From a virus: a stretch of 34,059 bases of DNA. Under the pieces are notes generated by a model. That model had not been told where the DNA came from, ran no database searches, and worked only from the letters and a program-made list of their open reading frames with translations. Position numbers and translations under genes: made by a program. Location of the stretch: the IMG/VR virus record IMGVR_UViG_3300042294_003544, positions 1 to 34,059 of that record; one strand, given 5' to 3'. Below, one piece after another: positions 1 through 17,459 of this stretch (the stretch's first letter is position 1; each line of letters opens with the position of its first letter).

Positions 1-81
1 GAACGGCACAAGCTCAGGGTGGCGAGCACGAATGACCGCCCAGACTTCGGGGCTGGTTTCCACGGTTCTGTAGTCCGACAT
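1..81 (-). CDS. Hypothetical protein, N-terminal fragment (runs off left edge)
   Basis: An ATG at 79-81 opens a minus-strand frame that stays open to the window edge. The 27 visible residues begin MSDYRTVETSPEVW and match no family I recognise. A well-formed sigma70-like promoter lies 25 bp upstream (106-134), which supports this as a real start. The stop codon is outside the window. Confidence 0.55.
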   Translation of the reverse strand, partial: MSDYRTVETSPEVWAVIRARHPELVPF

Positions 82-105
82 TGGGAGTGGCGTTTGTATG
101 CTATT

Positions 106-134
106 ACTATACCGTTTCTGCCAAGCAGGGACAA
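106..134 (-). promoter_or_regulatory. Sigma70-like promoter with palindromic spacer (P1)
   Basis: On the minus strand it has TTGTCC (-35), 17 nt, then TATAGT (-10). The spacer has CTGC-ttg-GCAG followed by AAACGG, as in the other members of this promoter family at 432, 3704, 7234 and 22430. It drives the gene starting at 81. Confidence 0.6.
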
Positions 135-169
135 GGGTGGAAACCGCCCGTTTTCGGGGTTGATGGTGA

Positions 170-409
170 CTAAGGGGTGAGTTCGTCCCACGAGTTAAAT
201 TCCGCAAGGTGCTCAATCATATAAGGTTGCATCCAATCCCAGCCGTCATTGATCTCTTGCCAGAACCGCCCCGTAAGATTTTCTTGCGTGTACCTTGTAT
301 CGCGGAACAACCACTCATTCCACTCGTAAAAGTGTTGTGAATACACACCAAAAACAGCAGCAGCCCAAAACTGGGCTGCATACTTAAACTGAGTGAGTGG
401 GTTCTTCAT
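170..409 (-). CDS. Hypothetical small protein, 79 aa
   Basis: Unrecognised. The protein is rich in Trp, Tyr and Phe (seven Trp in 79 residues) and has no clear membrane segment or Cys motif. It has its own sigma70-like promoter 23 bp upstream (432-460), and the next gene downstream has another, so it looks monocistronic. I see no homology clue to function. Confidence 0.6.
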   Translation of the reverse strand: MKNPLTQFKYAAQFWAAAVFGVYSQHFYEWNEWLFRDTRYTQENLTGRFWQEINDGWDWMQPYMIEHLAEFNSWDELTP

Positions 410-431
410 GGGTCAGCGTTTACACACTATT

Positions 432-460
432 ATTATACTGCTTCTGCGTCGCAGAAACAA
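432..460 (-). promoter_or_regulatory. Sigma70-like promoter with palindromic spacer (P2)
   Basis: Minus strand: TTGTTT, 17-nt spacer, TATAAT. The -35 and spacer contain the inverted repeat TTCTGC-gac-GCAGAA. It sits just upstream of the 79-aa gene starting at 409. Confidence 0.65.
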
Positions 461-525
461 GGGGTGGAAACCGCCCGTGTGCGAGGGGGGAAGATAATGC
501 TTCGCACTCTTCGAAAAAACTTTTC

Positions 526-562
526 AATGTTGAGGGGGGTGGGGGGGTACCCCCCTAACATT
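526..562. repeat. Inverted repeat, two-part stem with G-run loop
   Basis: AATGTT and AGGGGGGT on the left are complementary to ACCCCCCT and AACATT on the right, with one unpaired G and an 8-nt G-rich loop. Confidence 0.7.
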
Positions 563-669
563 GACTTTACAGGTTACCCCGGCGTACCTGTCTAAACTAG
601 TCGGCCATTTGGAAGCTGCCGAATAAGCGTGAAACTACTGGGGGTTTTAGCTGGAAAAATTTCAAAGTG

Positions 670-727
670 GGGGGACCCACCCCACCCCACTCAGTGCCCG
701 CAAGTTCTCAAGGGGGGTGGGTCCCCC
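670..727. repeat. Perfect 14-nt inverted repeat
   Basis: GGGGGACCCACCCC at 670-683 is the exact reverse complement of 714-727, separated by 30 nt. No T-run follows on either strand, so it does not look like a simple intrinsic terminator. Confidence 0.75.
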
Positions 728-775
728 TAGTTTACATAAAAATTTCGTGGAGAGGGCAGGGTAAAGTCATGTACA

Positions 776-824
776 GGGAGAGTGTTGTGGGTTATGTGAA
801 ATGACCTTGGGGCAACACTCTTCC
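776..824. repeat. Inverted repeat in the leader of the rightward genes
   Basis: AGAGTGTTG (779-787) pairs with CAACACTCT (813-821) and extends to 776/824 with one G-U pair. The stem ends about 20 nt before the start codon at 847, so it would form in the 5' leader and could affect translation. Confidence 0.6.
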
Positions 825-846
825 TCCCAAAACTTTTCACTCAACT

Positions 847-1929
847 ATGAACTTAATAGCGGCTAGACACACGGCGTCTCAAGCACTAACGAACGCTTTT
901 TCACAATTTGAGTCCAGAATTAATGAACTGGAAGCTGAAGTTAAAGACACCAAGGGCAAACTGGCTAAGGCAGAAAAGGCTTTATATTGTTGTGAAGATA
1001 AACTTAAAGAGACAAAAGAGATAGTTGTAAGTTTCGCCCACGAAGCTGGAATGTCAGTCAATGACTCTAGTCTCCACAACGCAACCTTGTTCCTTGGGAA
1101 ATGCGCAAGGGAGCTGTCTTCCCTTAAGGAAGATGCGGAAGCCCTTGGGTACGCGTCCCTTAAAAGCATGGTTAAGGCAGTCAAAATGACCACGAGTGAC
1201 ACAAGGGGCAGAAAGACTCGCGCATACTACGAAGATATACTTCCAAGGGAGCTTACAAGATTGCCTCTCGGTGTTCAACTGGCTAGCTCGGTCTCAGACT
1301 CGCGATACATCGAAAAACTTTTAATTGACGGAGTATATCCTGTATTTGAGCAGTATCTGGGGTCTGCTGCAGCTGACGTTGAACGTCTAACCCTATTGTG
1401 GAGCGAAATTAGCAGCGAAAGAGACATGGACACCGTTAAAAATTGGTGTCTCGAACGCACGGCGGGTGTGCGAGAGCAAACACCTCAGGACCTTGTTCCA
1501 CTTAGTGAGCTGATTTCCGATAGTGTTGGTACGTCAGGAGCATACAACACTCAAGTCCGTAGAGACTTGTTGGCCTGGGTGAACGAGGGGAATGTTTGTG
1601 TGTCTCGCATGGAGCTTGAAAAAGACTGGGAGACCTTGACCAGCAACAGTATCGTACACAAGTTGGTGAAGAAGTACGCGGGTTGTCCCATGCACTCCAG
1701 TGTTTGTGAAGCTGCAAAGGCTCTTGGATACTTGTCTTCAAGCGGGGTTTGGTCGGAGGAAATTACGCTCGGCCAGTTAGCCGCCGCTTTAAGGGCAACA
1801 GACTCAGTGAAAGACACTGCAAAGTGGAACACAGACTTTGTGGATGCGGCTATAGAAGCCATCCAAAGCCGCACTGGGGGTAAAATCCAAATGAACCCGT
1901 TTACGAAGAGTGTGTCCACCGTAAACTAA
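847..1929 (+). CDS. Hypothetical coiled-coil protein, 360 aa (rightward)
   Basis: This is one of the few rightward genes. Residues about 20-65 have the heptad-like charged pattern of a coiled coil (repeated E-L-E, K-L-A-K-A-E-K spacing), followed by a mostly helical domain without recognisable catalytic motifs. The ATG at 847 follows the hairpin-rich non-coding region directly and has no strong Shine-Dalgarno sequence. A short rightward gene follows 35 bp later, suggesting a two-gene unit. All competing frames here are shadows. Function unknown. Confidence 0.75.
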   Translation: MNLIAARHTASQALTNAFSQFESRINELEAEVKDTKGKLAKAEKALYCCEDKLKETKEIVVSFAHEAGMSVNDSSLHNATLFLGKCARELSSLKEDAEALGYASLKSMVKAVKMTTSDTRGRKTRAYYEDILPRELTRLPLGVQLASSVSDSRYIEKLLIDGVYPVFEQYLGSAAADVERLTLLWSEISSERDMDTVKNWCLERTAGVREQTPQDLVPLSELISDSVGTSGAYNTQVRRDLLAWVNEGNVCVSRMELEKDWETLTSNSIVHKLVKKYAGCPMHSSVCEAAKALGYLSSSGVWSEEITLGQLAAALRATDSVKDTAKWNTDFVDAAIEAIQSRTGGKIQMNPFTKSVSTVN

Positions 1930-1964
1930 AGTACAACCTTCCTTTAATCCTGTAAGGGGCGATT

Positions 1965-2171
1965 ATGAACCTAGCTGATGACGACAATAAGGATTGGAAA
2001 CAAACCACTTTTGACGGGAAAGTTATAGACCGTGAAGACATCTGTGTTCTACTCGACCGCACATTCCGCTGCGGACACTCGACACAAGGCAGCCCATTAG
2101 AGTATTACGGGCCGATTCCTCGACTCGTTGACCCGCCTAAGCGAAAGAAACCGAGACCCGTGGGGGACTAG
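1965..2171 (+). CDS. Hypothetical small protein, 68 aa (rightward)
   Basis: The start is supported by AAGGGG seven nucleotides before the ATG. The protein is acidic at the N-terminus and ends in a Pro/Lys/Arg-rich tail (DPPKRKKPRPVGD). It is second in the rightward pair and converges tail-to-tail with the leftward gene ending at 2168, overlapping it by 4 nt. No family recognised. Confidence 0.65.
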   Translation: MNLADDDNKDWKQTTFDGKVIDREDICVLLDRTFRCGHSTQGSPLEYYGPIPRLVDPPKRKKPRPVGD

Positions 2172-2833
2172 CCGTAGTACGGCACCGTAGGTACAAACAC
2201 CATTGGGAACCTTGACCCTTTTACTCTTGCGACAAATCCCTGGTACTTTTCAACCCATATCGGATCAGCGTAGCAAAGCTCTCCGAGCCGACTTGTCGGG
2301 TTGCCTGAAGAAGTAGCATCGAGTTCTTCGTTGGTTCTCTCAAGGAGCTTGGCTTCGTTGCTGTTTTCTTCAAATTCTCTGTGCGGGAAGTAGCGAGCGT
2401 ACCAACTTAGCCGGTCATACAGGAACCCTGTCTCAGCAAGTTGGTTGTCGCACATGTCGTAAACTTGAGCGGTCTCGTAGCTAACGTAGCGAGGATCACC
2501 CGAATCACCAATCTGCACGGTGACGAAACAATCGCGCTGCCAGAGCCAGTCCGAACTTCCAACTGGCGCGTATATAGTGTACACGAAAAAATCAGACAGG
2601 TCGTTTTCGTGGTTGCAAGTGTTTTCTCGTACAACTTGTTCGTACTCGCAACCTTTTATCAACTTGAAAAGCGAAACAAGGTCCGCATAGGCGTCCTCCG
2701 AAAAGTCGCTTTCTTCCACGCATTCATGAATCGAAGGAGGAAGAGACATTGGCTTCCCGAGCGAGCTCTCAATGTGCTTTCTCGTGTCCAGCATGCACAT
2801 GAACCAGTGCTTTTTATCCCGGATTACATTCAT
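2168..2833 (-). CDS. Hypothetical protein, 221 aa
   Basis: An acidic, aromatic-rich soluble protein with no transmembrane segment. It contains several Cys and His but in no recognised metal-binding spacing. It lies 34 bp downstream of the small Cys-containing gene at 2868-3170 and probably belongs to the operon started at the promoter at 3704-3731. Function unknown. Confidence 0.7.
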   Translation of the reverse strand: MNVIRDKKHWFMCMLDTRKHIESSLGKPMSLPPSIHECVEESDFSEDAYADLVSLFKLIKGCEYEQVVRENTCNHENDLSDFFVYTIYAPVGSSDWLWQRDCFVTVQIGDSGDPRYVSYETAQVYDMCDNQLAETGFLYDRLSWYARYFPHREFEENSNEAKLLERTNEELDATSSGNPTSRLGELCYADPIWVEKYQGFVARVKGSRFPMVFVPTVPYYG

Positions 2834-2867
2834 TGTTTAGTGTTGAGGTATACCGAAGGGGGAAGCA

Positions 2868-3170
2868 TTAACTAGGAGAGCCCCGCTCTCGCGCCTCTTG
2901 TCGAGTGCGGCTTCGTCCAACGTGGTAGCCGTCGCAAAATGCACATTTGTACGCACTGAAGGTGCCACCGAGTCTCTTTTGCATCGAGTCGGCTGCTTTC
3001 AATGCTGAGCTTTTGCTATTATACATGACTTTGGGCTTCCCACTCTTGAGTGAAATGTGAGAGTTTCGTGAGAAAAGACCCCATGCGACCCCGGTGACGA
3101 AAAAATTCCGAAGTGCCCTTTGAATTGGGAACTGGTCTTGAACTGCCCGGTATAAGTTGTACGGGTCCAT
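2868..3170 (-). CDS. Small zinc-ribbon-like protein, 100 aa
   Basis: The C-terminal half carries SKSSALKAADSMQKR followed by YKCAFCDGYHVGR. This resembles the common phage and bacterial mini-protein pattern of a Ser/Ala/Lys helix followed by a Cys-x2-Cys-x-x-Tyr/Trp-His knuckle. The tail is Arg-rich, suggesting nucleic-acid contact. Its ATG overlaps the stop of the upstream gene (TAATG), indicating translational coupling. The metal-binding role is inferred from the motif only. Confidence 0.65.
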   Translation of the reverse strand: MDPYNLYRAVQDQFPIQRALRNFFVTGVAWGLFSRNSHISLKSGKPKVMYNSKSSALKAADSMQKRLGGTFSAYKCAFCDGYHVGRSRTRQEARERGSPS

Positions 3171-3679
3171 TATCCGGTTATAGCTGCGTTTCTGGCTGCG
3201 GCTAACGCCAAGGGGTCGGAGGAACTGTTGCGCTTTCCGTTAAACCACTTGCAGCACGTAAGATGGAAGTAAGGGTCGCTTACCGGGGTAGACCCGATGA
3301 AGCCTCCGCTCGTTTCCCACTTGGGCTGGTTCTTGCAAAAGGGGCAATTTTCGTGTTCTACCCCGACAATCTCAAGCACATTGCTCCGGTGTACACCAGG
3401 CAGGGACATACCAACCGGGTTTTCTGCCCACTCAATCAGCCCCTTGGGGAGAATCACTCTGTAACCGTCCCAGTAGTCAAACTCGGGCGACAGCACGTTT
3501 TTGAACCCAGCGCCTCGAATACGCATCTCTGCTGTGAACACTATTTCAAACTTTTTGCTCCCATGAGCCATCCTCCAGATGCACAACCCTTTCTCGGGCT
3601 TGCGCTCTGCGTAGTTATGGAATACTAAACTCCCCAAAAGTTCTTTTGTGCTGAGAGTTTGGGGCTGGGCGAGGGTCAT
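3170..3679 (-). CDS. Hypothetical protein with CPFC knuckle, 169 aa
   Basis: First gene of an operon starting at the promoter 3704-3731. The protein has a CPFC motif and a later CC pair plus an upstream His (EHENCPFC), compatible with one zinc site in the C-terminal third. The N-terminal two thirds look like a compact alpha/beta fold with no recognisable family. It is translationally coupled to the next gene. Confidence 0.7.
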   Translation of the reverse strand: MTLAQPQTLSTKELLGSLVFHNYAERKPEKGLCIWRMAHGSKKFEIVFTAEMRIRGAGFKNVLSPEFDYWDGYRVILPKGLIEWAENPVGMSLPGVHRSNVLEIVGVEHENCPFCKNQPKWETSGGFIGSTPVSDPYFHLTCCKWFNGKRNSSSDPLALAAARNAAITG

Positions 3680-3703
3680 TGTTCGAGTGTCTCAACTGAA
3701 TTA

Positions 3704-3731
3704 AGTATACGTTACTGCCGAGCAGAAACAA
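3704..3731 (-). promoter_or_regulatory. Sigma70-like promoter with palindromic spacer (P3)
   Basis: Minus strand: TTGTTT, 16 nt, TATACT, with CTGC-tcg-GCAG in the spacer. It directly follows the terminator hairpin of the upstream membrane-protein gene, so terminator and -35 element are adjacent. Confidence 0.65.
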
Positions 3732-3732
3732 G

Positions 3733-3746
3733 GGCGGTTAACCGCC
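3733..3746 (-). terminator. Intrinsic terminator hairpin GGCGG-TTAA-CCGCC
   Basis: A perfect palindrome directly abuts the stop codon of the membrane-protein gene and is followed on the minus strand by CTTGTTT. The T-rich tail doubles as the -35 of the next promoter. Confidence 0.6.
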
Positions 3747-4274
3747 TTAACCAAGTCCCCCTTCTCCCAGATCGGTTCGAGGGGCAATACCTTCTTGCCT
3801 TCTCCTCGACTCGATAACAGAATCAATTCGCTCTCTTTGGGTAGCAATTAAAACACTTGGAATACTCAGCGAATAAGAGAATGCGAGAATGCCAAGGAAC
3901 AGGTATATTCGTTCCAACCAGATACTTTGGGTGGGAACAGCTTTTGACACCAGCACGGTTACAAAAATAAGCCCAAGCGTAACAAGGTAAGACAGGAAGA
4001 GTACCTGGTGGCGAGCCCATCGTCTATTGAGACGTTCCCGGTACACCTCGGCGACCCTCCAGTTTCCCGGTGGGATCAGAACAGGATCTCCGACCACCAC
4101 AATCAGGATGGCGATAGAGTAGGCTAGAACGGAAAATGCTGTAAATAGCATATTCAGTGCGGCGTCATTGCCGTGTATGAGTGGTTGAAGGTAGTACGCA
4201 ACGACTCCTGACGTTACCGCCTTGGGGCGTGTCAAACCTAAAACTAGTTTGCTGAACGAAAACTTTCCAGACAT
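3747..4274 (-). CDS. Hypothetical integral membrane protein, 175 aa
   Basis: About four hydrophobic segments are visible: around residues 20-32 (weak), 40-62, 92-110 and 120-143. A basic loop (YRERLNRRWARHQ) lies between segments two and three, and the C-terminus is charged and Gly-rich. No holin, transporter or photosynthesis motif was recognised. It ends against a terminator hairpin. The fold suggests an inner-membrane protein of the infected cell; function unknown. Confidence 0.7.
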   Translation of the reverse strand: MSGKFSFSKLVLGLTRPKAVTSGVVAYYLQPLIHGNDAALNMLFTAFSVLAYSIAILIVVVGDPVLIPPGNWRVAEVYRERLNRRWARHQVLFLSYLVTLGLIFVTVLVSKAVPTQSIWLERIYLFLGILAFSYSLSIPSVLIATQRERIDSVIESRRRQEGIAPRTDLGEGGLG

Positions 4275-4350
4275 TTGGCTACGGGGGTGTTTAACCTGAG
4301 AAGTGTGTGCTGATTTCGCTTAAGAGCTGCGTGGGACTACCCGACAGTAA

Positions 4351-4647
4351 TCAGTCAGAGCCTTGCCTTAGAAAGGATTCGCGTTTCAGGGCCAGAGCGT
4401 CCAGCTCAGACGCGATTAGGTTCAGGGCATCACGTACATGGCATTTGTATTCCATAGGAAAACCGTATAGTGAGCCGTATTCTACCGGTGAAGCTTCCTG
4501 GGCTGCAACACGGATGGCCTAAGCAAGGGCGCTAAAGCCGGAGTCAGCTTCAGGGTTGTGACGATGGCTAAACGCACTCACTACCTTTTGTGTTGCGGCT
4601 TTGACCTCTTGGGTAGAGCTAAGGTTACCGTAGGGGTCAATCGTCAT
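4351..4647 (-). pseudogene. Small gene with an in-frame TAG codon (42 + 55 codons)
   Basis: The frame starts at an ATG with a good AAGGAG site and overlaps the upstream stop (ATGA). It reads 42 residues ending NPEADSGFSALA, meets TAG at 4519-4521, then continues in the same frame for 55 residues (AIRVAAQEASPVEYG to SFLRQGSD) before TGA. The second part looks genuinely coding: amphipathic, no odd codons, no separate start with a ribosome site. It could be an amber mutation in a decaying gene, programmed readthrough or suppression, or a sequencing error. TAG is a normal stop for other genes here (for example 2168). Product function unknown. Confidence 0.6.
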
Positions 4648-4754
4648 TTTCTCCTTGTTAAACCTTGAAGGACATTGTACATGATGATTGTTGCCACCAC
4701 ACCTGCAACGGCAACGGCGGACACGATAATCACTAACAAAACTGGAACTTCCAT
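4644..4754 (-). CDS. Single-pass membrane peptide, 36 aa
   Basis: A very short gene beginning MEVPVLLVIIVSAV and ending in a basic tail (LTRRK). Residues 4-25 form one strong transmembrane helix. Its TGA overlaps the ATG of the next gene (ATGA), so the two are coupled. It has the size of a small membrane regulator or a photosystem/cytochrome single-helix subunit, but matches none that I recognise. Confidence 0.55.
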   Translation of the reverse strand: MEVPVLLVIIVSAVAVAGVVATIIMYNVLQGLTRRK

Positions 4755-4813
4755 GGTAGTTTCGGGTGGTTTGAGTGGGCAGAGTGGTACTAAAGAATAA
4801 TTTCTCCTAGTGG

Positions 4814-5182
4814 CTAAGACCAGAACCTTTTGAGGTAGTTTTCCCTTTCAACTTGGCGTTCCTCATTGTACTGTTCAAGCCAATAGTCGTTGCGTTTGTC
4901 TGTGAAGAATCCCTTACACGACCCTCGATACTTTCGGTAAAACAGTGTCATTTTCGAAGCTAGCCAAACTCCGTGTTCCCGAACTTCTCTTAAACTCATT
5001 GTGAATTTACACTCTGGGACGTCTTCTGTTCGAACATTCCACACGCTGGTGTAAGCCGTGGGGTTTGCATTCCACACGTCGTTTGCACTTATAAGTTCCC
5101 CAGAGATAGCGCACCACTTTTCGATAGGGTGGAGACTGCCGTGAGTTACACGAAAGTGAATGCAAGACTGACAGGGTGACAT
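4814..5182 (-). CDS. Hypothetical Cys-containing protein, 122 aa
   Basis: I start this gene at the internal ATG at 5182 (MSPCQSCIHF), because a longer upstream extension would overlap the better gene at 5217-5423 and is shadow-like. The N-terminus has CQSC followed by WC about 19 residues later, and another Cys further on, a pattern seen in small metal- or FeS-binding proteins. The C-terminus is charged and aromatic (DYWLEQYNEERQ). No family recognised. Confidence 0.6.
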   Translation of the reverse strand: MSPCQSCIHFRVTHGSLHPIEKWCAISGELISANDVWNANPTAYTSVWNVRTEDVPECKFTMSLREVREHGVWLASKMTLFYRKYRGSCKGFFTDKRNDYWLEQYNEERQVERENYLKRFWS

Positions 5183-5216
5183 TGGAGTTTGCTTAGTTTG
5201 GTGAGTTGCTAACGAG

Positions 5217-5423
5217 TTACTCGGGTAGTTCTCTGTGGAAATAACCAGCCAGCTCATTATAAACAGAGCACTCTTCCCAGAGCAAGGTGCCGTAGTCGTC
5301 GAAGCCCTTTTCGCAGGCACGCTCGCTCTCATTTTCGAGTTGGTGCGCCTCGTTGCGAAGAGCTTGTGCAACTCTGCGTGCGTCTTCAGGTGTGAGCTCA
5401 TACTTTATCGTAGATTTGGTCAT
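5217..5423 (-). CDS. Hypothetical acidic helical protein, 68 aa
   Basis: A short, strongly helical acidic protein (ALRNEAHQLENESERA) with no membrane segment. It follows the 85-aa gene at 5437-5694 by 13 bp and probably shares its transcript from the promoter at 5718-5747. Unknown function. Confidence 0.6.
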   Translation of the reverse strand: MTKSTIKYELTPEDARRVAQALRNEAHQLENESERACEKGFDDYGTLLWEECSVYNELAGYFHRELPE

Positions 5424-5436
5424 AAGTGAAAAGTTG

Positions 5437-5694
5437 TCAGGACTCTCCCTCTAAGTCATTGGCCAAACTCAAAATGTCTTCGACAAGAATGGCATCCTCA
5501 CTGAAATAAAAGGTTCCCTCGTACTCATATGTTTTTTCCACCTTAACCTCTTGAGACTTAAGCTTCGCTAAAGCCCGGAGTGCAACGGCCAACCCTAGGC
5601 GAAGGCCAATCTCAGGAAAATCGTACTGCTCAAATACGTCGTTTGCAGAACTGTACAACTCTTTTGCTGTTGGTGGCAATTTAGAAGTTTTCAT
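5437..5694 (-). CDS. Hypothetical protein, 85 aa; tandem paralogue of 5807-6058
   Basis: The N-terminus (KTSKLPPTAKELYSSA) and C-terminus (ANDLEGES) align with the adjacent 83-aa gene, which has NTSKLCPNAQELYDAA and ADDLEGKS. The central 30 residues are diverged. The copies share gene length and the preceding promoter architecture, so the pair arose by tandem duplication including the intergenic cassette. Function unknown. Confidence 0.65.
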   Translation of the reverse strand: MKTSKLPPTAKELYSSANDVFEQYDFPEIGLRLGLAVALRALAKLKSQEVKVEKTYEYEGTFYFSEDAILVEDILSLANDLEGES

Positions 5695-5717
5695 GGCTGA
5701 ATTGGTTAGCTGAAACC

Positions 5718-5747
5718 ACTATAGCGGGTTTTTAGCGGCAAGAGCAA
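5718..5747 (-). promoter_or_regulatory. Sigma70-like promoter (P4, palindrome degenerate)
   Basis: Minus strand: TTGCTC, 18 nt, TATAGT. The spacer has lost the CTGC...GCAG palindrome seen in the other members. A GC-rich imperfect hairpin (GGCGGGAAACCGGCC) lies just upstream. Confidence 0.5.
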
Positions 5748-5806
5748 GGCGGGAAACCGGCCCCAGCTCTCCAACTTCATCTCAGGTTTGTCCGTATAAA
5801 TGGTTA

Positions 5807-6058
5807 TCAGGACTTTCCCTCTAAGTCGTCAGCAATCTCTGTTAAAGAGGTCGTACAGTTTGTGATCCCGCGTATAAACTCAGTTTTTGGTTTGTTATTG
5901 AAAATTCCAATTTCCCTCTCCCACTTGTCTGAAAGACGGTGTAGGGCAGCGGCCAACGCTATGCGAAGGGTATCCTCGGGGATCTCAAACTGCTTAAGTG
6001 TGGATTCTGCGGCGTCGTACAGCTCTTGAGCGTTGGGACACAGTTTAGAGGTGTTCAT
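5807..6058 (-). CDS. Hypothetical protein, 83 aa; tandem paralogue of 5437-5694
   Basis: See the paralogue at 5437-5694 for the shared ends. Helical, acidic, no catalytic motif. It is preceded by its own promoter (6091-6119), which lies inside the 3' end of the upstream coding region. Confidence 0.65.
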   Translation of the reverse strand: MNTSKLCPNAQELYDAAESTLKQFEIPEDTLRIALAAALHRLSDKWEREIGIFNNKPKTEFIRGITNCTTSLTEIADDLEGKS

Positions 6059-6078
6059 GGCTGTTGGCCAAAGGTGGG

Positions 6079-6468
6079 TTAACTGACTCTACTATACCGC
6101 TTTCTGCTCAAGATAGCAAGGGCGGGAAACCGGCCCCTAGCCCTCCAACTATGTACAATTTCACGATAGGCGCACCATAGCTTAAAGCTTAACCTCCAAC
6201 GTAGTCTACTCACACCCCTGAAACCCTTTACAGGTGCAAAGTTCGGGCGATCGTAGTAGTTCACTTCCGGGAAGCTTAAGTCCGTATCCACACTTATGCT
6301 GTACCCTCTCATGAATGACTTTTGTGTTTGTGCTTCAAATAGCTTCACTGCTTCTTCGATTCCTTCGCAGTAGCACTCGAACACCGGTTGAGGATTGGAC
6401 CGGTAGTAAGCTTCTGACCTATCACCGTATCTGGATCCATACCAGAATTGGTAAGTTCTCCTGCTCAT
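6079..6468 (-). CDS. Hypothetical basic protein, 129 aa
   Basis: An aromatic N-terminus (RRTYQFWYGSRYGDRSEAYY) is followed by an Arg/Trp-rich C-terminus. The last 25 or so residues are encoded by the GC-rich hairpin and promoter cassette at 6091-6137, so the natural C-terminus may have been extended when that cassette was inserted. It is coupled to the upstream 56-aa gene by an ATGA overlap. Function unknown. Confidence 0.55.
   Translation of the reverse strand: MSRRTYQFWYGSRYGDRSEAYYRSNPQPVFECYCEGIEEAVKLFEAQTQKSFMRGYSISVDTDLSFPEVNYYDRPNFAPVKGFRGVSRLRWRLSFKLWCAYREIVHSWRARGRFPALAILSRKRYSRVS
6091..6119 (-). promoter_or_regulatory. Sigma70-like promoter (P5) inside the end of a coding region
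   Basis: Minus strand: TTGCTA, 17 nt, TATAGT, with GCAGAAAGCGG preserved next to the -10 but the left palindrome arm lost. It drives the gene starting at 6058. Confidence 0.55.
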
Positions 6469-6635
6469 TCCTGCTCAAACCGGTGAGCCAGGGCAGCTGC
6501 GGCATCGTCTGCCCTCTTGGCTAGGTTGCTTAGCTCATAGTCCGAGAGTGGAAAACGTGAGTCGCACTCTTTAATTAAGTGGAGGTAAATTTCTGTGGCC
6601 AGATTCATGTAGCGTTCCTCTGTGTAGCTTGCCAT
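6465..6635 (-). CDS. Hypothetical small helical protein, 56 aa
   Basis: Starts MASYTEERYMNLATEIYLHL and ends AHRFEQE. It is a compact amphipathic helical protein. Its TGA overlaps the next ATG (ATGA), which is good evidence that both are translated as a coupled pair. Unrecognised. Confidence 0.55.
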   Translation of the reverse strand: MASYTEERYMNLATEIYLHLIKECDSRFPLSDYELSNLAKRADDAAAALAHRFEQE

Positions 6636-6688
6636 TTTGTTTAGGGGGGTTGGTTGGTGAAGACCTTTACAAGGCTATTGAGGGAAAG

Positions 6689-6836
6689 TCAGCGCCGTTC
6701 GGTTTCTAAAATCGGATAAAAAACTCCACAAACTACCCCACTAATAATGGGAATCCATGCAGTATTTGGAAACATAAAGGCGAAAAGAGCCCCCAATGCA
6801 GCCAGTGGCTATAAGGTTGAAATAGTTGAGTTTCAT
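6689..6836 (-). pseudogene. Possible frameshifted small membrane protein
   Basis: An ATG at 6836 opens MKLNYFNLI, but its frame yields an unlikely 31-residue product ending at 6741. A shift of one nucleotide near the ninth codon joins a convincing hydrophobic sequence (LAALGALFAFMFPNTAWIP and on to ILETERR) ending in TGA at 6689. This fits a two-segment membrane protein of about 48 residues broken by one indel. It could also be two unrelated short frames. Confidence 0.35.
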
Positions 6837-6846
6837 GACTGTGGGG

Positions 6847-6972
6847 TTAACGCCGAAAAGGTGAGGACCAGAAAGCTCTTGATACCACCACGTAAATAAC
6901 GAGAGTGGACGTAACACCGATGAGACCTAAAAAGGTCACAACGTTTCCATTAAAGTCGAGAGTGTCGGGCAT
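6847..6972 (-). CDS. Single-pass membrane peptide, 41 aa
   Basis: Starts MPDTLDFNGNVV. A hydrophobic stretch (about residues 12-31) is followed by a short basic tail, giving one membrane helix. It is followed 10 bp later by the possible frameshifted membrane gene. No recognised family. Confidence 0.45.
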   Translation of the reverse strand: MPDTLDFNGNVVTFLGLIGVTSTLVIYVVVSRAFWSSPFRR

Positions 6973-7027
6973 TGCAGGGAGGTTGGTTGAGGTATGTGGG
7001 TTTGGTGTTTTAACGTTGCTAAGCAGC

Positions 7028-7222
7028 CTAGAAACGATCGAGAACGAACTTAACCTCGTGTAAAGAGGTGGTGTTAGGGTCTACAAACTCAGCGTAGACG
7101 TAGTCTACAGGCAATTCCATCTCAGATGCAAACTCTTCGCAGAGTGCAAATTTAAGCTCGTCTTCCATCTGAGCTTTCTCCTCAAAAAGGTCGAGGGTGG
7201 ACTTTTTCACGGTTGCTTGCAT
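7028..7222 (-). CDS. Hypothetical acidic protein, 64 aa
   Basis: A short, acidic, probably helical protein (DLFEEKAQMEDELKFALCEEF) ending VKFVLDRF. It has a near-perfect promoter 12 bp before the start (7234-7262), so it is likely well expressed early or from host RNA polymerase. Function unknown. Confidence 0.6.
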   Translation of the reverse strand: MQATVKKSTLDLFEEKAQMEDELKFALCEEFASEMELPVDYVYAEFVDPNTTSLHEVKFVLDRF

Positions 7223-7233
7223 GGACTGAAGTA

Positions 7234-7262
7234 ACTATACCGTTTCTGCGCTGCAGAAACAA
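7234..7262 (-). promoter_or_regulatory. Sigma70-like promoter with perfect palindrome (P6)
   Basis: Minus strand: TTGTTT, 17 nt, TATAGT. GTTTCTGC-agc-GCAGAAAC is a perfect 8+8 inverted repeat overlapping the -35, the best copy in the window and operator-like in form. Confidence 0.7.
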
Positions 7263-7302
7263 GGGGGGAATCCGCCCCGGAGCGCAGGGGGGAATCCGCC
7301 CC
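7263..7302. repeat. Tandem GC-rich repeat behind promoter P6
   Basis: Two identical 16-nt units (GGGGGGAATCCGCCCC) at 7263-7278 and 7287-7302, each able to form a short hairpin. Related GGcGG/CCgCC units precede the other promoters of this family. The following 7303-7336 shows no gene. Confidence 0.65.
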
Positions 7303-7336
7303 TTGCCCCCCGGTCGCAGGAGCCAGGGGCTAGAGA

Positions 7337-7420
7337 TCAGAGATCGTCGCAACGGTTTCTCGATTCTTCACGCAGAGAAATCTCAGTCTCACGCTCGCAA
7401 AGCCTTAACAAAACGTCCAT
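7337..7420 (-). CDS. Possible mini-protein, 27 aa
   Basis: Starts MDVLLRLCERETEIS 7 bp after the stop of the AbrB-like gene, in operon-like spacing, and ends at a TGA. It has no clear ribosome-binding site and is too short to judge by composition. Confidence 0.25.
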   Translation of the reverse strand: MDVLLRLCERETEISLREESRNRCDDL

Positions 7421-7427
7421 GTTCAAC

Positions 7428-7613
7428 TTAGCTATCTCCGTCGGGTTCAATCTTTCGGAAAATGATTCGTCCGGCGAACACCTCGATTCCGAGCGTGTCT
7501 CCTTCTGACCAGCCAACTGCTTGAAGGATCTCTTCAGGGAAGTCAAGAACGAGGTCACCATTGTCGTCGGAGGAAAGTTTCGTTGTAAGGTTATCATTAT
7601 TGTGCTCAAGCAT
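7428..7613 (-). CDS. AbrB/MazE-type DNA-binding or antitoxin-like protein, 61 aa
   Basis: The pattern GDLVLDFPEEILQAVGW, then SEGDTLGIEV, then IIFRK matches the swapped-hairpin AbrB/MazE fold, where the family typically has I-P-x-E-h-h-x-x-L-G-h-x-x-G-D-x-h-x-h-x-h-x-x-x-x-h-h-h. Family members bind DNA as dimers, as transition-state regulators or antitoxins. No toxin gene with a clear match is adjacent, so a stand-alone regulator is more likely. It overlaps the upstream gene by 8 bp in a four-gene operon. Confidence 0.6.
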   Translation of the reverse strand: MLEHNNDNLTTKLSSDDNGDLVLDFPEEILQAVGWSEGDTLGIEVFAGRIIFRKIEPDGDS

Positions 7614-7794
7614 TGTTTTCGATAATTTGAAGGTCCAACTTAGGGTTTATCATGAGTAGGTCATTCCTCATATTTTGTAGTTTGCTTCTGTACCTAGAAG
7701 CTGACGGCCACTCTGCATGTGTCTTCACTATCTTGTTTCCCTCTATTTCAACCAACTTTAGGACACCTGGGGGGAAGTTTCTTGGTGGTATCAT
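7606..7794 (-). CDS. Hypothetical small protein, 62 aa
   Basis: Starts MIPPRNFPPGVLKLVEI and has a basic helical middle. It is coupled to the upstream gene by ATGA and overlaps the AbrB-like gene downstream, so it is probably an operon member. No family recognised. Confidence 0.55.
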   Translation of the reverse strand: MIPPRNFPPGVLKLVEIEGNKIVKTHAEWPSASRYRSKLQNMRNDLLMINPKLDLQIIENNA

Positions 7795-8063
7795 TTTAAG
7801 TCTTGGCTGACGGACCAGGCCATTGCGGCTTGTAGGTCGGCTGCAGCACGTGGTTCGTGCAGCCAGCGCTCATTGGATGGTACTGCAGTCGATGCCCACT
7901 CGTGCAGAATTCCCTCTGCAGGCCGAATCTCAGCCTTTTCGACATCCTCGCCATTCTCATGCAGAGAGCGGGTTGCACTGGCCACTGTGAAGAACTTCTT
8001 GCCTTTCACGTTCCATCCGAAGCCGTCCCACACTCGGCCATCAACGCGAACAACCAAATACAT
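7791..8063 (-). CDS. Hypothetical protein, 90 aa
   Basis: The N-terminal half (YLVVRVDGRVWDGFGW, then KGKKFFTVASATRSLH) looks like a small beta-rich domain of phage or plasmid hypothetical proteins. The C-terminus is helical. It is the first gene of the coupled 8063 to 7428 operon. Function unknown. Confidence 0.6.
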   Translation of the reverse strand: MYLVVRVDGRVWDGFGWNVKGKKFFTVASATRSLHENGEDVEKAEIRPAEGILHEWASTAVPSNERWLHEPRAAADLQAAMAWSVSQDLK

Positions 8064-8118
8064 AATAGTTCTCGGGTAGCTGAGACTAGCTTAGCGCCTC
8101 GACACGTCGGTAAAGGGC

Positions 8119-8556
8119 TCACATGCCAAGGTAAGCTTGAAGGAGGTACTGGTCCGTAAGAACCGCATCAGAGATGCCCTGAATACGATTGGAAAGTGCG
8201 ACCAGGCGGGGGTCACCCTCGATGCTCTCGACAAACTCGAAAAACAAGGCGAGTGTGGCGCTCAAGGACATTAAAAAGTCAAGGGAAAGTTCGGCCAAGA
8301 ACTTACAGTCGTAGTTCTGCATCGAGATTCCAGGGCCGCTGAAGAGTGCGAAGTCGGGGTTGTGCTGAAACGCTCTTAGGCTCTCAACAAGGCCATCAAT
8401 TTGCCCGGAAAGGTCGGTATAAACTCTCTCGAAAAGAAGGTGGCACTCGTAGAAATTCGGTCCCCTTACGTTCCAGTGCGACATGCGACTTACAGTTATC
8501 GCGTCATTAAGTGCCTTAATGGTCTTATTTGCGTATACCGTGAAATTTTCTTCCAT
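8119..8556 (-). CDS. Dps-like mini-ferritin, 145 aa
   Basis: Dps proteins are 12-mer cages that oxidise and store iron with peroxide and protect DNA. The motif SHWNVRGPNFYECHLLFE followed by QIDGLVES is the Dps signature. The four ferroxidase residues fall at H27, H39, D54 and E58, with the same spacing as H31, H43, D58 and E62 of E. coli numbering. The length is slightly short for the family (about 160-170), mainly at the N-terminus, which lacks the DNA-binding Lys tail. A GGGTAAAA-type late motif lies 22 bp before the start. In a cyanophage it could detoxify peroxide from photosynthesis or hold iron; DNA binding is doubtful. Confidence 0.8.
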   Translation of the reverse strand: MEENFTVYANKTIKALNDAITVSRMSHWNVRGPNFYECHLLFERVYTDLSGQIDGLVESLRAFQHNPDFALFSGPGISMQNYDCKFLAELSLDFLMSLSATLALFFEFVESIEGDPRLVALSNRIQGISDAVLTDQYLLQAYLGM

Positions 8557-8578
8557 TGTGGTCCAGTGACTCGACTAA

Positions 8579-8588
8579 GTTTTACCCC
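8579..8588 (-). promoter_or_regulatory. GGGTAAAA-type late promoter motif
   Basis: Minus strand GGGGTAAAAC, 22 nt before the Dps-like start. See the family described in the findings. Confidence 0.55.
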
Positions 8589-8626
8589 TTTTCTGTGTGG
8601 TGAGAACGGTTCACACCCCCAGGAAA

Positions 8627-9247
8627 TCAGTACTTAATTGTCCAGTCTCCTTTCGATCCCTTATTTATCTCAAAGTCAAACTTTTTCGGCTTTTCAGAGT
8701 CCGTGTTGTCAAAGAATTTACCGGAAAAGGACTTTCCGTCAGGGGACTGCAGGTAGCTGTTACTTTCATTTGGGGGGTTTCCATCCCTGTCCGTGACACT
8801 CGACACACCGTCGAGGTAGACAGAGGAAATCACCTTTTTAAGGAAAAGCTCGATTTTGTCTGACATGTTGCCCGTTTCGGCAAAGCTGAGATCAAAGTCG
8901 AGTTCGTTGAAGCTACTTACTTCGCCGCAAGGGTCTTGGAGGAGCTTTTCTGATTGTATCTCAAGGATGTTTCTTTCGTCGGGCCAATCCGAATCCTGAG
9001 TGTAAATTAGACGCTCAACAACCTCGGAAAACTCCTCGTAGGTTTTCTCAGTGAGTGTGACACGGTTGAGTAGATTCAAGAGTGATACAGAACCGTCGGA
9101 GTAGTCGTGGGAGAGGCCTTCAACGTAGCTGTTCGGAATAGAAGCAAGGTCCCCTCTCGAAGCTTCCCACAGCATATCTGTTACTTTCCTTGCACTTATC
9201 TCAAAGTTTTCGTCCCTTGCGAACGAGGGATTGCGGTCCATAACCAT
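8627..9247 (-). CDS. Hypothetical acidic protein, 206 aa
   Basis: I start at the ATG at 9247 (MVMDRNPSFARDEN; alternative 9241) because a GGGTAAAATA motif sits at 9275-9282. A longer frame to 9307 would run through it and into the upstream gene. The protein is acidic and Ser/Asp-rich, with no membrane segment. The C-terminal part (DGNPPNESNSY to KKFDFEINKG) resembles beta-rich structural phage proteins in composition only. Function unknown. Confidence 0.6.
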   Translation of the reverse strand: MVMDRNPSFARDENFEISARKVTDMLWEASRGDLASIPNSYVEGLSHDYSDGSVSLLNLLNRVTLTEKTYEEFSEVVERLIYTQDSDWPDERNILEIQSEKLLQDPCGEVSSFNELDFDLSFAETGNMSDKIELFLKKVISSVYLDGVSSVTDRDGNPPNESNSYLQSPDGKSFSGKFFDNTDSEKPKKFDFEINKGSKGDWTIKY

Positions 9248-9274
9248 GGTCGGCTGAGCACTTCTTACAGGGTA

Positions 9275-9282
9275 TTTTACCC
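9275..9282 (-). promoter_or_regulatory. GGGTAAAA late promoter motif
   Basis: Minus strand GGGGTAAAATA, 27 nt before the ATG at 9247. It overlaps the 3' end of the glycosyltransferase region. Confidence 0.5.
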
Positions 9283-9285
9283 CAT

Positions 9286-10362
9286 TTAGACACTCAAAGT
9301 ATACCAACCTTTATCCCACAGATTGTTCAAGTCGGAGAATATCCGAGCGTACTTCTTTCCGCACGCGTCAAGGCTGTACCTTGCTGCTGAAAGCTCGTGT
9401 ATCCTCTTTCGGTCCAGGTCCCCCACGCTATGCAAAGCATTCACCCACTCTTGAAGAGTGTGGCATCGAAACCCGGTAACACCCTCGATGACGGTCTCTG
9501 TGAAAGCACCGTAGTCCACGGATACTAGAGGAGTCCCGCAGAGCATTCCTTCGACGCCGGACCCACCAAATGGTTCTGTAAAGGTAGTCGGCATTAAGCA
9601 GGCACGTGCGTTTCTCAGGAAAGTGCTACGTTCTTTGCCCTTGAGTGGCCCCACGTACTCAATATTAGGATGTTCCCAGGGTGTTGGATCTCCTTGTCCG
9701 GCCAGGCGGATTTTCCACGGGCTGTAGTCTGCGAGTGCCTTGATTGTGTCAAGACCTTTCAGTGGGGTTATTCTTCCCAGGAACGCGAGATAGTCACCGC
9801 TTTCGAAGGAGGGCTCCCACTCGCTTGTGTCAAAATAATTGGGAATAACCCACTCGTAGTTCTCCCCGTTTCGTCCCTCTTTGCCTTGGTGATAGTGCAT
9901 CCAGGCGTATGATTCAAAGATTTTTTTCGTTCCAACCATGGTTGTAGGGTAGCCAATACCGGTTTCAACGTGTGTGTTGGACGGGAACTTACTCAGTAGG
10001 GTCGAATGGGCGTGGCCAAAGGGGTGGCAGATAATGTCGCGAGGTTTTACACGGTCGTGAAGCGCAGGAATTAGACGAGACTCAAAGAGTTGGTGACCCT
10101 CTGTTCCAATTGTGGCGTCGTCTCCATGGAATTCCCGATCGTCGCGGTTGCCGTATAGTCTGTCAAATTCTTCTGCCGTTAGCATTGTGACATGCTCAGA
10201 GGCGTTTGCAACAGAACCTTCGTTGGCGTACTCAATTACGTTGTACCCTTGCGCCTTCATCATCTTCGGAAAGCGCATAGCCTTTCCGGTAAACGCGCAG
10301 TGGCTATATTGTTGGGTGGGCAGGGTGTGAAAAATTCCGATGAGATGGAGTGTTGGTTTCAT
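9286..10362 (-). CDS. GT4-family glycosyltransferase, 358 aa
   Basis: Retaining GT-B glycosyltransferases of family 4 move sugars from nucleotide-sugars. The C-terminal Rossmann half has FLGRITPLKGLDT (donor-domain start) and the E-x7-E signature EPFGGSGVE, followed by CGTPLVSVDYGAFTE and GVTGF, all family hallmarks. The N-terminal half (HLIGIFHT, then HPFGHAHSTLL) is the acceptor domain and is diverged. It lies next to the tail-fibre module, so it may glycosylate virion proteins, host surface sugars or modified DNA bases; the sequence does not say which. Full family length. Confidence 0.85.
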   Translation of the reverse strand: MKPTLHLIGIFHTLPTQQYSHCAFTGKAMRFPKMMKAQGYNVIEYANEGSVANASEHVTMLTAEEFDRLYGNRDDREFHGDDATIGTEGHQLFESRLIPALHDRVKPRDIICHPFGHAHSTLLSKFPSNTHVETGIGYPTTMVGTKKIFESYAWMHYHQGKEGRNGENYEWVIPNYFDTSEWEPSFESGDYLAFLGRITPLKGLDTIKALADYSPWKIRLAGQGDPTPWEHPNIEYVGPLKGKERSTFLRNARACLMPTTFTEPFGGSGVEGMLCGTPLVSVDYGAFTETVIEGVTGFRCHTLQEWVNALHSVGDLDRKRIHELSAARYSLDACGKKYARIFSDLNNLWDKGWYTLSV

Positions 10363-10407
10363 TTTGCTTATGAAGTTGCCTGAACAAAGCTATTTTAGCT
10401 TGAGCCT

Positions 10408-12172: not shown

Positions 12173-15133
12173 TCAGTTGTAACGAATGGTTGCGGTGAAA
12201 ATGTGACCGGACGACCCGGTGCCAATCTGAACTAGGTCGACGCCTAAAGTGTCCCCGGCAATGAGGGTTAGGGTGCCCGTAAGGGTGCCGCTAACGTCCA
12301 CATAGATTCCCGTGGTTGCGGGCAGAGATGCGTTAGCAGTGAGTAGGTTGGTTCGAGTACCACTGCGACGCGCATAAAACATTGCCTGACTGCTTCCACT
12401 GGTTGATGGTGCGGTGGGGTTAAGCTCCCAAAAAGCACCCGTCACAGTGCAAGAACGTTGAACTGTCGTCTCAACGTAGTTGGTAGCTGGTGTGGTGGTT
12501 TCGCCTTTGTTGCTGACAACAAACTTAAGGGTGTCGGTGAACTGCAGGGAACCAGCGTTGATTGAGAGGCTGCCGCCCAACGCGGCTCCAGCAGGTGAAC
12601 CAGAGTTGTTGTAAATTACTTGACCTGTGGAACCCGCGATGGGGCCTGTTGCCCCAGTAGCCCCAGCGGCACCTGTGGCCCCCGATACGCCTGTGAGGCC
12701 CGTGGCCCCCGACGCCCCCGTAGGACCGGTTATGCCGGACACTCCAACAGCACCCGTGGCTCCGGCCATACCCGTGGCACCCGTGGCTCCCGTAGATCCC
12801 TGAGCACCGCTCACCAAGGCAAGGAACAATGAGTGGTTGTTACTGAAGTTTGATGTTCCTAACCCGGACGAGTTCAGCAGGGTTACAGGATACTGCCAGT
12901 AGCTGTTTGATGAACCAGGGTTTATATTCGTGGGTGCGCCGTCAACCACCCAAGTTTGATAGTTTAAGCTATCGTTCTTGTCTTGTACGACAATTTTTTC
13001 GGCTGGGGCTATCTGAGATAAGAATATATCAATGTCTATGTTGTCACCCGTTAAATGACTAATGCTTAGTGTCGTAGAGGTGATTTGAGCTAGATTGTTC
13101 CAGATTAGGTACCCTGAGTCAGGGTTTCCCATGGTGGCCGTAGTTTTTGCTCTATAGAGGAATAAATTAGAAGAAAGTCCTTGGGGGCCAGTGGGACCTG
13201 TGCTACCGGTTGATCCTGTCACTCCTGTTGCCCCAGTCGCTCCAGCTACTCCAACGCCTGTTGCCCCTGTTGTTCCCGCTCCTGTTGCACCAACAGCCCC
13301 TGTTGCTCCGTCCGTTCCTGCTACTCCTGTTGCCCCTGTTGTTCCCGCTCCTGTTGCACCAACAGCCCCGGTTGCCCCAGTCGCTCCAGTTACTCCAACG
13401 CCTGTTGCCCCAGTCGCCCCAGTTGCTCCAATCGTTCCTGCTACTCCCGTCGCCCCTATTATTCCAGCGCCCGTAGCACCAACAGCCCCCGTAGCACCAA
13501 CAGCCCCGGTTGCCCCAGTCGCTCCAGCTACTCCGACGCCTGTTGCTCCAGTGGCCCCAGTTGTTCCCGCCCCTGTTGCACCAACAGCCCCTGTTGCACC
13601 AACAGCCCCTTCTACTCCAGTCGCCCCTGTTGTTCCAGCCCCTGTTGCACCAACAGCCCCTGTTGCCCCTGTTGCTCCAGTTACTCCAACGCCTGTTGCC
13701 CCAATCGCTCCAGTTGTTCCAGCCCCTGTTGCACCAACAGCCCCGGTTGCCCCAGTCGCTCCAGCTACTCCGACGCCTGTTGCTCCAGTGGCCCCAGTTG
13801 TTCCCGCCCCTGTTGCACCAACAGCCCCTGTTGCACCAACAGCCCCTTCTACTCCAGTCGCCCCTGTTGTTCCAGCCCCTGTTGCACCAACAGCCCCTGT
13901 TGCTCCAACCGTTCCTGCTACTCCCGTCGCCCCTATTATTCCAGCGCCCGTAGCACCAACAGCCCCTGTTGCACCAACAGCCCCTGTTGCACCAACAGCC
14001 CCTGCTACTCCAGTCGCCCCTGTTGTTCCAGCCCCTGTTGCACCAACAGCCCCTGTTGCCCCTGTTGCTCCATTTACTCCAACGCCTGTTGCCCCAATCG
14101 CTCCAGTTGTTCCAGCCCCTGTTGCACCAACAGCCCCGGTTGCCCCAGTCGCTCCAGCTACTCCGACGCCTGTTGCTCCAGTGGCCCCAGTTGTTCCCGC
14201 CCCTGTTGCACCAACAGCCCCGGTTGCCCCAGTCGCTCCAGCTACTCCGACGCCTGTTGCTCCAGTGGCCCCAGTTGTTCCCGCCCCTGTTGCACCAACA
14301 GCCCCTGTTGCACCAACAGCCCCTGCTACTCCAGTCGCCCCAGTTGTTCCCGCCCCTGTTGCACCAACAGCCCCTGTTGCTCCAACCGTTCCTGCTACTC
14401 CCGTCGCCCCTATTATTCCAGCGCCCGTAGCACCAACAGCCCCTGTTGCACCAACAGCCCCTGCTACTCCCGTCGCTCCTGTTGTTCCCGCCCCTGTTGC
14501 ACCAACAGCCCCTGTTGCCCCAGTGGCCCCGGCTACTCCAACGCCTGTTGCTCCAGTCGCTCCTGTTGTTCCCGCCCCTGTTGCACCAACAGCCCCTGTT
14601 GCCCCAGTGGCCCCTGCTACTCCAGCCCCTGTTGCCCCAGTGGCACCACCCGGAGAACCTGCAGGACCACTTGGACCCGTGGCACCGATTGGCCCAGACG
14701 CCCCTGCAGGACCTGCGTCCCCCCTGAAACTCGATATCCACTGCCCACCGTCTAAGTCAACGTACCATATCGACAAGTAAGACGACAGGGTATCAAACCA
14801 CAAATCACCCTCAGTCGGGTCTGGAGGAGGTGAAGCGGATACTGTTACGGGAGAGCTATTCGAAGAGCAGGGTGGCTCACCCGCCACTTCATCCCATCGA
14901 CCCCCCTCAAGGGTAACCACCCATATCTTCAATGTGAAATCCGTAGGGTTGTACCAGAGAGCACCACTTACCGGACTCGGTGGTGGAGAAGAGGATACGA
15001 ACGCATTAGCGTAGGTAATTTGCGTACACGAATCGCTCAGAGTAATCCACTGCCTACCCGTCCAGCGATAACTATTGCCTTGCCAAAGGAAAATCTGACC
15101 CGGCGTTGGATTTAAGGGGAAATTCTCTATCAT
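12173..15133 (-). CDS. Collagen-like tail fibre protein, 986 aa
   Basis: Domains in order: residues 1-35 hold [15 protein letters not shown]; two related repeats follow ([20 protein letters not shown] and [20 protein letters not shown]), typical of virion attachment segments. From about residue 140 to 630 there is a Gly-x-y collagen array dominated by [18 protein letters not shown] units. A globular insert comes next (about 640-770), then a short second collagen stretch. The C-terminal domain (about 830-986) is a beta-rich head ending TATIRYN. Collagen repeats form stiff trimeric rods in phage fibres. DNA units of about 80-110 bp recur nearly identically, so copy number probably varies between relatives. 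Confidence 0.85.
13203..14700 (-). repeat. Minisatellite-like array encoding collagen triplets
   Basis: Higher-order units built of 9-nt triplet codons recur many times, for example the block around 13740-13850 recurs near 14150-14220 and 14220-14300. This explains the long open frames on both strands in the region. It is not a CRISPR: there are no unique spacers. Confidence 0.8.
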
Positions 15134-15138
15134 CTCGC

Positions 15139-15375
15139 TTACAAGTTCTCACCCAACTTGTGGTACTTAGGGTTTAAGACTCCGCCACTCAACTCAATCT
15201 TTTGAATGCGAATTCCAAGGTCGTGGTAAATGTCAAATATACTTACCCTTTTCGTGGACTTAACTACGTCTACAACACCGTCTTCTCGTGTAACAGTGTG
15301 GCAATCCGAGGTGAGTCGTCTCGGGTCGATCTCTGAGAGCTCGACGTTTTCGGCAACGACTTTAACCTGCGACAT
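15139..15375 (-). CDS. Hypothetical protein upstream of the fibre gene, 78 aa
   Basis: Starts [20 protein letters not shown] and ends 5 bp before the fibre start, so it is probably the first gene of the tail-fibre operon. A GGGTAAAA motif lies 26 bp upstream (15401-15408). It is a small soluble mixed alpha/beta protein; a tail or fibre-assembly role is inferred from position only. Confidence 0.6.
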
Positions 15376-15400
15376 TTACTCTGACTTGGGCGCTGCCTAC

Positions 15401-15408
15401 TTTTACCC
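15401..15408 (-). promoter_or_regulatory. GGGTAAAA late promoter motif (fibre operon)
   Basis: Minus strand AAGGGTAAAAGTA, 26 nt before the 78-aa gene that leads the tail-fibre operon. Confidence 0.55.
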
Positions 15409-15475
15409 TTATTTTTCAGAGTTTACGGCCCGTTCGGGCAGCTATTTTACTAAGGAAATACTAAAAGAGTTCCGC

Positions 15476-15790
15476 GTGGCAACAATTACCGTTCCTAGCC
15501 AAATCGTCAACGAGGGTGTAACCGTAAATTGGAACAAAGGGGTTGTAGCACCCTCGTTGACAACTCCGGAAGAAAAAGTGGAGTGGAGCTACCTAGTTTC
15601 CAGGGGTCTCTACGGCAAATACGGTCACACCCTTGACCTGAAAGACTGCTTGTTTACGGACTTAGTAATTGCGCTATCAGTGCTAGTTGGCAGGGATAAC
15701 CTGACTATAGACTCAGATGGGTGGCAACAATGGGAAAGAGAAAAGTTTCACGAAGGCATGAACCCAATCCCCGACGGAGCAGCATCTTAG
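15476..15790 (+). CDS. Hypothetical protein, 104 aa (rightward)
   Basis: The only substantial rightward frame in the tail and virion half. I choose GTG at 15476, giving MATITVPSQIVNEGV, because AAAGAG lies 6 nt upstream; the ATG at 15230 would lie deep inside the opposing gene. The protein has good codon texture and a mixed fold (YLVSRGLYGKYGHTLDL, then DLVIALSVLVG). Its TAG overlaps the stop of the opposing protease-like gene. No leftward gene covers this stretch. Function unknown. Confidence 0.5.
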   Translation: MATITVPSQIVNEGVTVNWNKGVVAPSLTTPEEKVEWSYLVSRGLYGKYGHTLDLKDCLFTDLVIALSVLVGRDNLTIDSDGWQQWEREKFHEGMNPIPDGAAS

Positions 15791-17436: not shown

Positions 17437-17459
17437 GTACATACCGTCCTCTAAGTAAC

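Follow-up and report, generated by a model that had tools for sequence, protein, structure and literature searches.

The window analysed here, a 34,059-base IMG/VR virus record taken at its full length, carries a dps gene at positions 8119-8556 on the minus strand, which reads from an ATG for 145 amino acids with no internal stops; its product is referred to below as P0001. A 70 nt intergenic leader (8557-8626, minus strand) lies between dps and a preceding gene of unknown function (8627-9307, minus strand), and a late-promoter-like element, GGGTAAAA, is found within this leader at 8580-8587 on the minus strand, 31 nt before the dps ATG. The window also contains psbA, which encodes the photosystem II D1 protein (18225-19304, minus strand; Pfam Photo_RC, E = 7.6e-85), and a gene for the ribonucleotide reductase large subunit with a C-terminal glutaredoxin domain (32414-34024, minus strand), a possible redox or iron client. 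This psbA is ~69% identical at the nucleotide level to Synechococcus phage psbA, which bears out the attribution of the DNA to a cyanophage in an earlier note made from the sequence.

Fifteen IMG/VR records carry this Dps, 12 of them at 94% identity (ten with the same protein sequence) and three at 58-59%. One of the carriers is 277,244 bases long and has a psbA that is 98% identical to that of the window. Window positions 1-10381 are collinear with one end of this 277-kb contig and positions 14215-33176 with the other, and the genome is therefore probably circular or circularly permuted with a size of ~280 kb. The contig break falls at a repeat-rich collagen-like gene, seen in the window as a 986-residue tail-fibre protein with a GATGA repeat (12173-15133, minus strand). 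Six further minus-strand ORFs of the window (15787-17442, 19733-20887, 22519-24123, 26715-28124, 28734-29300 and 29952-31520) share an N-terminal leader, YD[FY]TRC[VL][KR]PDG..YG..G.C..G, beyond which their C-terminal parts are unrelated and include a kinase-like catalytic loop (Pkinase, E = 3e-5), an HExxH motif and a weak match to PhiKZ gp244. Several of the six lie behind GGGTAAAA, and together they look like a family of late or virion-delivered effectors that share a targeting leader.

The sequence matches of P0001 point to the Dps family. Its best phmmer match among PDB sequences is Bacillus brevis Dps (PDB entry 1n1q, E = 8e-8), and all 54 matches at E <= 1 are named Dps, ferritin-like or related, including a few such as AFP and CAIP, which are Dps proteins. 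A profile built from 24 relatives retrieves 71 PDB sequences at E <= 1e-10, and the 60 of these that were listed are Dps-family members or chimeras built on them. The protein also matches PHROG 3636, 'DNA binding protein', at 1.3e-9. The curated family models give lower scores: Pfam Ferritin (PF00210) matches residues 10-68 with E = 2e-4 and 21.7 bits against a cut-off of 24.5, and the NCBIfam Dps equivalog NF006975 gives 33 bits against a cut-off of 114. Both scores point to a strongly diverged second half of P0001. Among the relatives, L011 (26.3 bits) and L024 (26.7 bits) pass the PF00210 cut-off, L021 equals it (24.5 bits) and L013 and L023 score below it. A search of a plasmid collection returned only a Vibrio Dps, covering 33% of the query. 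Around helix B there is a similarity to the uncharacterized family DUF5856 (PF19174), with E = 0.0011 for L021 (8001-8432) and E = 0.2 for P0001, both far below the curated cut-off; from the L021 match this family may be Dps-like.

The earlier note had proposed that H27, H39, D54 and E58 are metal ligands at the canonical Dps spacing, and the alignments with solved Dps proteins agree with this. In ungapped register, H27, H39, E43, D54 and E58 of P0001 fall on positions 25, 37, 41, 52 and 56 of HP-NAP (phmmer alignments), 31, 43, 47, 58 and 62 of Listeria innocua Dps and 51, 63, 67, 78 and 82 of Escherichia coli Dps. Residue 47 of the Listeria protein is an aspartate (D47). For HP-NAP, the conserved ligands are described as coming from two subunits, His25 and His37 from one and Asp52 and Glu56 from its partner, and Glu41 is placed at the site (PMC4192664); E43 is thus a further site-position residue, which the earlier ligand list did not contain. 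All 31 aligned Dps rows (15 phage and 16 cellular) retain the four main ligands, although the cellular rows were gathered with patterns that included HWN and FYECH, so that among them only the conservation of D54 and E58 is unbiased. Position 43 is variable in the same alignment (E, D, G, M or S) and is Gly in L013, L024 and Synechococcus phage S-SRM01. As judged from sequence register, P0001 has the H, H, D, E ligand set of a dimer-interface ferroxidase site at Dps spacing.

The intrasubunit di-iron site of Dps-like (DpsL) proteins, ferritins and bacterioferritins has two ExxH motifs. The 145-residue protein contains no ExxH motif, which rules out a site of the ferritin, DpsL or bacterioferritin type. 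The ligands of such a site are given as E47, E80, H83, E130, E162 and H165 (PMC11150526).

The diverged C-terminal half and the variable residue 43 could also be read as signs that the Dps fold has lost its activity or been put to another use, such as mixing with host Dps so as to poison or redirect the latter. Against this, every phage row retains the four main ligands even though the remainder of the protein drifts to ~58% identity and beyond, and the dN/dS ratio of dps against three close relatives is low (~0.065-0.10), which indicates that the gene is under purifying selection. Similarity to cyanobacterial Dps is also slight for a mixing partner, at 16-18% over ~140 residues. We regard this reading as very improbable, and as the least probable of those considered here.

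The AlphaFold2 model of the P0001 monomer, computed from a 24-sequence alignment, has a mean pLDDT of 94.7 and a pTM of 0.89; the 16 bacterial Dps among the input sequences favour a model of Dps type, so that this result is not independent of the sequence result. Helices are predicted at residues 2-29, 35-61, 69-72, 84-110 and 116-142. All 50 Foldseek matches listed belong to the Dps family (E down to 1.3e-5, TM 0.83), and the best VIA-align match is Mycobacterium smegmatis Dps2 (PDB entry 2z90; Z = 18.7, r.m.s.d. of 2.2 Å over 140 residues), with other Dps and one mini-bacterioferritin tied within one Z unit of it. P0001 is thus predicted to be a Dps-type four-helix bundle over its whole chain. 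The outcome named in the earlier note as speaking against its reading, a non-ferritin bundle without an interface site, is not what was obtained, as far as the monomer model shows.

The absence of the DNA-binding tail, also claimed earlier, is borne out by the model. Only 26 residues precede H27, the first predicted helix begins at residue 2 and the last ends at residue 142 of 145, and the lysine-rich terminal tail of E. coli-type DNA-binding Dps is absent from both ends. The protein is acidic, with a pI of 4.56 and a charge of about -9 at pH 7. In length and in having no long N-terminal tail it resembles HP-NAP (1ji4, 144 residues) and L. innocua Dps (1qgh, 156 residues; ~19% identity over the whole chain), with which the ligand register, including the E41/D47 position, is shared. 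It differs from both in being encoded by a viral gene behind a late-type promoter and in the short helix of the BC loop, a feature defined for Dps in PMC11150526; this helix spans just four residues (69-72) in the model and seven in HP-NAP (PMC4192664). M. smegmatis Dps2, the best structural match, is 18% identical to P0001 and is aligned only from its own residue 15 onwards, and hence has an N-terminal extension. Taken together, the open reading frame, the profile matches and the predicted fold uphold the claim of a phage-encoded Dps-like protein: P0001 is, by sequence and by model, a tail-less mini-ferritin of the classical Dps type. Its Dps identity, ligand register, subunit fold and lack of a tail, together with the selection on the gene and the class of its promoter motif, are the parts of the preferred explanation established in silico.

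A recent capture of the gene from a cyanobacterial host is unsupported. Solved cyanobacterial Dps proteins reach the 16-18% identity given above, the cyanobacterial Dps 2c41 matches P0001 at E = 0.098 (phmmer, PDB) and the NCBIfam cyanobacterial DpsA model gives no match at E <= 0.01; the comparison took in solved cyanobacterial Dps and the DpsA model. In the phylogenetic tree, 13 of 28 inner branches are open and three branches are long, and we have used only the window clade (support 96/95) and its union with L024 (100/100). L024 (contig CALGUV010000018.1) is a phage contig that was binned into a Microbacteriaceae MAG; by inspection it has phage-like genes (speD-like, exonuclease and lysozyme-like), and its dps also lies behind GGGTAAAA.

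The earlier note had mentioned a late-type motif for dps without specifying it. The T4 late box, ATAAATA, is rejected for this role in this phage. The single occurrence seen (against 1.52 expected) is at 8662-8668 on the minus strand, within the preceding coding sequence, and is judged to be chance; it is missing in L001, and upstream of 108 ORFs (103 kb) it was observed three times against 5.0 expected, with no enrichment. A hairpin before dps that was seen by eye is not conserved and was dropped. Unprompted counts of 7-mers upstream of the same 108 ORFs instead gave GGTAAAA (11 against 0.8 expected), GGGTAAA (11 against 1.3), AGGGTAA (nine against 1.0) and CGGTATA (eight against 1.0). The part of the claim that stands is that GGGTAAAA precedes dps as a phage-wide element.

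In the window and the relative together, 23 starts have GGGTAAAA 29-36 nt upstream, homologous sites being counted twice. In the 277-kb relative it lies 15-45 nt upstream of 14 of 210 ORFs, dps and its upstream neighbour among them, and its reverse complement does so for one of 210 (Fisher p = 8e-4). Upstream of dps the element is located at -31, both in the window and in all 12 close loci; L023 has it at -30 and L024 at -33. The L021 and L013 copies precede an ORF whose end coincides with the dps start or lies just ahead of it. The element therefore stands before dps or the directly preceding ORF in all five phage variants examined, the chance of such a site being ~8e-4 per search window, and the stretch from motif to ATG in the dps leader is nearly invariant in the three relatives aligned. 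The preceding gene of the window has its own GGGTAAAA at 9275-9282, because of which ATG 9247 is the more likely start of this gene than TTG 9307.

The 'late' label of the element derives from the class of the other genes behind it, with the reservation that GGGTAAAA also occurs before genes of unknown timing. It lies ~30 nt before genes for tail sheath, head maturation protease, head-tail adaptor, endolysin and Dps, and 58 nt from portal. A PHROG scan of nine motif-near proteins identified tail sheath, portal, head maturation protease and head-tail adaptor, and gave no function for five. The endolysin gene (24604-25332, minus strand; element at +35) places a lysis gene in the same promoter class. 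Late-class expression of dps is thus supported by the sequence.

Membership of dps in one promoter class with head and tail genes would also be expected of a Dps that is expressed late for incorporation into or onto the particle, where it would carry iron or protect DNA and be delivered at the next infection. The same class appears to drive several of the paralogous leader-bearing ORFs, one of which weakly matches a PhiKZ capsid decoration protein, and in BFVD Dps-like folds occur inside longer 'Prohead protease' proteins of uncultured Caudovirales (A0A6J7XDU5, A0A6J7WIS1 and A0A6J7WPK9), possibly as head-associated Dps fusions, possibly through mis-naming. However, P0001 has neither a packaging signal nor the leader in its 145 residues, lysis genes are also late and need not be virion parts, and the BFVD names may be mis-assigned. 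A virion-associated Dps is in our view unlikely.

The explanation that we consider likely is a tail-less Dps ferroxidase made from the late-type promoter, which would remove iron and peroxide during virion assembly. By analogy with known Dps, twelve subunits would probably form a hollow shell, and each twofold interface is predicted to bind iron through H27 and H39 from one subunit together with D54 and E58 from its partner. This iron would be oxidized, typically with H2O2, and then stored as a ferric mineral, so that removal of free Fe2+ and peroxide would prevent hydroxyl-radical damage; the protein would act without coating DNA. Being read, as the element suggests, together with capsid, tail and lysis genes, the shell would accumulate during virion assembly, at a time when phage psbA sustains photosystem II. 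Phage-supplied D1 should raise peroxide in the dying cell, and a late-phase phage ferroxidase, if true, would be a direct remedy. The 12-mer, its catalysis, the actual timing and the benefit to the phage are what we infer beyond the mini-ferritin itself.

Dps encoded by phages is already known, from S-SRM01 and from gut, Lactobacillus and Campylobacter phages. Those of 'Gratiaviridae' gut phages, reported in a text that cites seven Lactobacillus phages (PMC8008677), and of Campylobacter phage CPt10 (gene CPT_0123; PMC2853527) enter here through published descriptions. The Dps of Aeromonas phage 4_4572, Salmonella phage 7-11, Cronobacter phage GAP52 and Streptomyces phages StarPlatinum and Gilson have the same four ligands and form tree branches separate from the window clade. 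In the first three of these phages the gene sits among nucleotide genes (ribonucleotide reductase, thyX, thioredoxin and dCTP deaminase), a setting that would suit an iron buffer that stores and releases iron for ribonucleotide reductase, and such a reductase, with its glutaredoxin domain, is present in the window. In the window, however, dps lies ~24 kb from the reductase gene, and its late-type element would place it later than DNA synthesis is expected to peak; we find this role quite improbable for P0001. The contrast between cyanophages and enterobacterial phages suggests differing uses of one fold.

Synechococcus phage S-SRM01, also a freshwater cyanophage and a cultured isolate, encodes a 144-residue Dps (QPX48251.1, annotated 'DNA starvation/stationary phase protection protein') with a late-type box immediately upstream of the gene. 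Unlike P0001, this protein has cyanobacterial DpsA as its best NCBIfam match (8e-15); it falls outside the window clade, though on a long branch, and its box is of the T4 type rather than GGGTAAAA, with ATAAATA 27 nt before the ATG. In 50 kb of S-SRM01, ATAAATA occurs within 45 nt before 20 of 70 genes, including wedge, tail-fibre, tube-cap and baseplate genes, and its reverse complement before none of the 70. On these three grounds, tree position, DpsA-like sequence and ATAAATA box, the Dps genes of the window lineage and of S-SRM01 seem to be two independent late-class cyanophage genes. We suggest tentatively, at somewhat less than even confidence, that freshwater cyanophages recruited Dps at least twice from different sources, each time under their own late promoter, and that selection favoured control of iron and peroxide, or a virion component loaded with iron, for the assembly phase and not for DNA replication. 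The text of the S-SRM01 paper has no word beginning with Dps, ferritin, starvation or oxidative, and among the papers listed from the one collection searched there was no report of a late-expressed cyanophage Dps; the repeated late placement of Dps in cyanophages and the GGGTAAAA element may be new. The element offers an entry point for studying late transcription in one group of large freshwater cyanophages.

A second promoter-like class, TTTCTGC-n-GCAGAAACGGTATAAT, precedes a UvrD-like helicase and small ORFs. It consists of an inverted repeat, TTTCTGC...GCAGAAA, abutting CGGTATAAT ~30 nt before starts, with sites upstream of 7028-7222, 170-409 and 20925-22409 and in pieces of the relative G001, and it is likely to be an early or middle class. 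Neither promoter element is present within 75 nt upstream of psbA. A DNA methyltransferase gene of the window (25387-26445, minus strand) seems to have no counterpart at the corresponding position of G001. There the upstream flank is the same and, with GGGTAAAA, is followed at once by the endolysin gene; the methyltransferase gene seems to have been gained or lost between flanking late elements.
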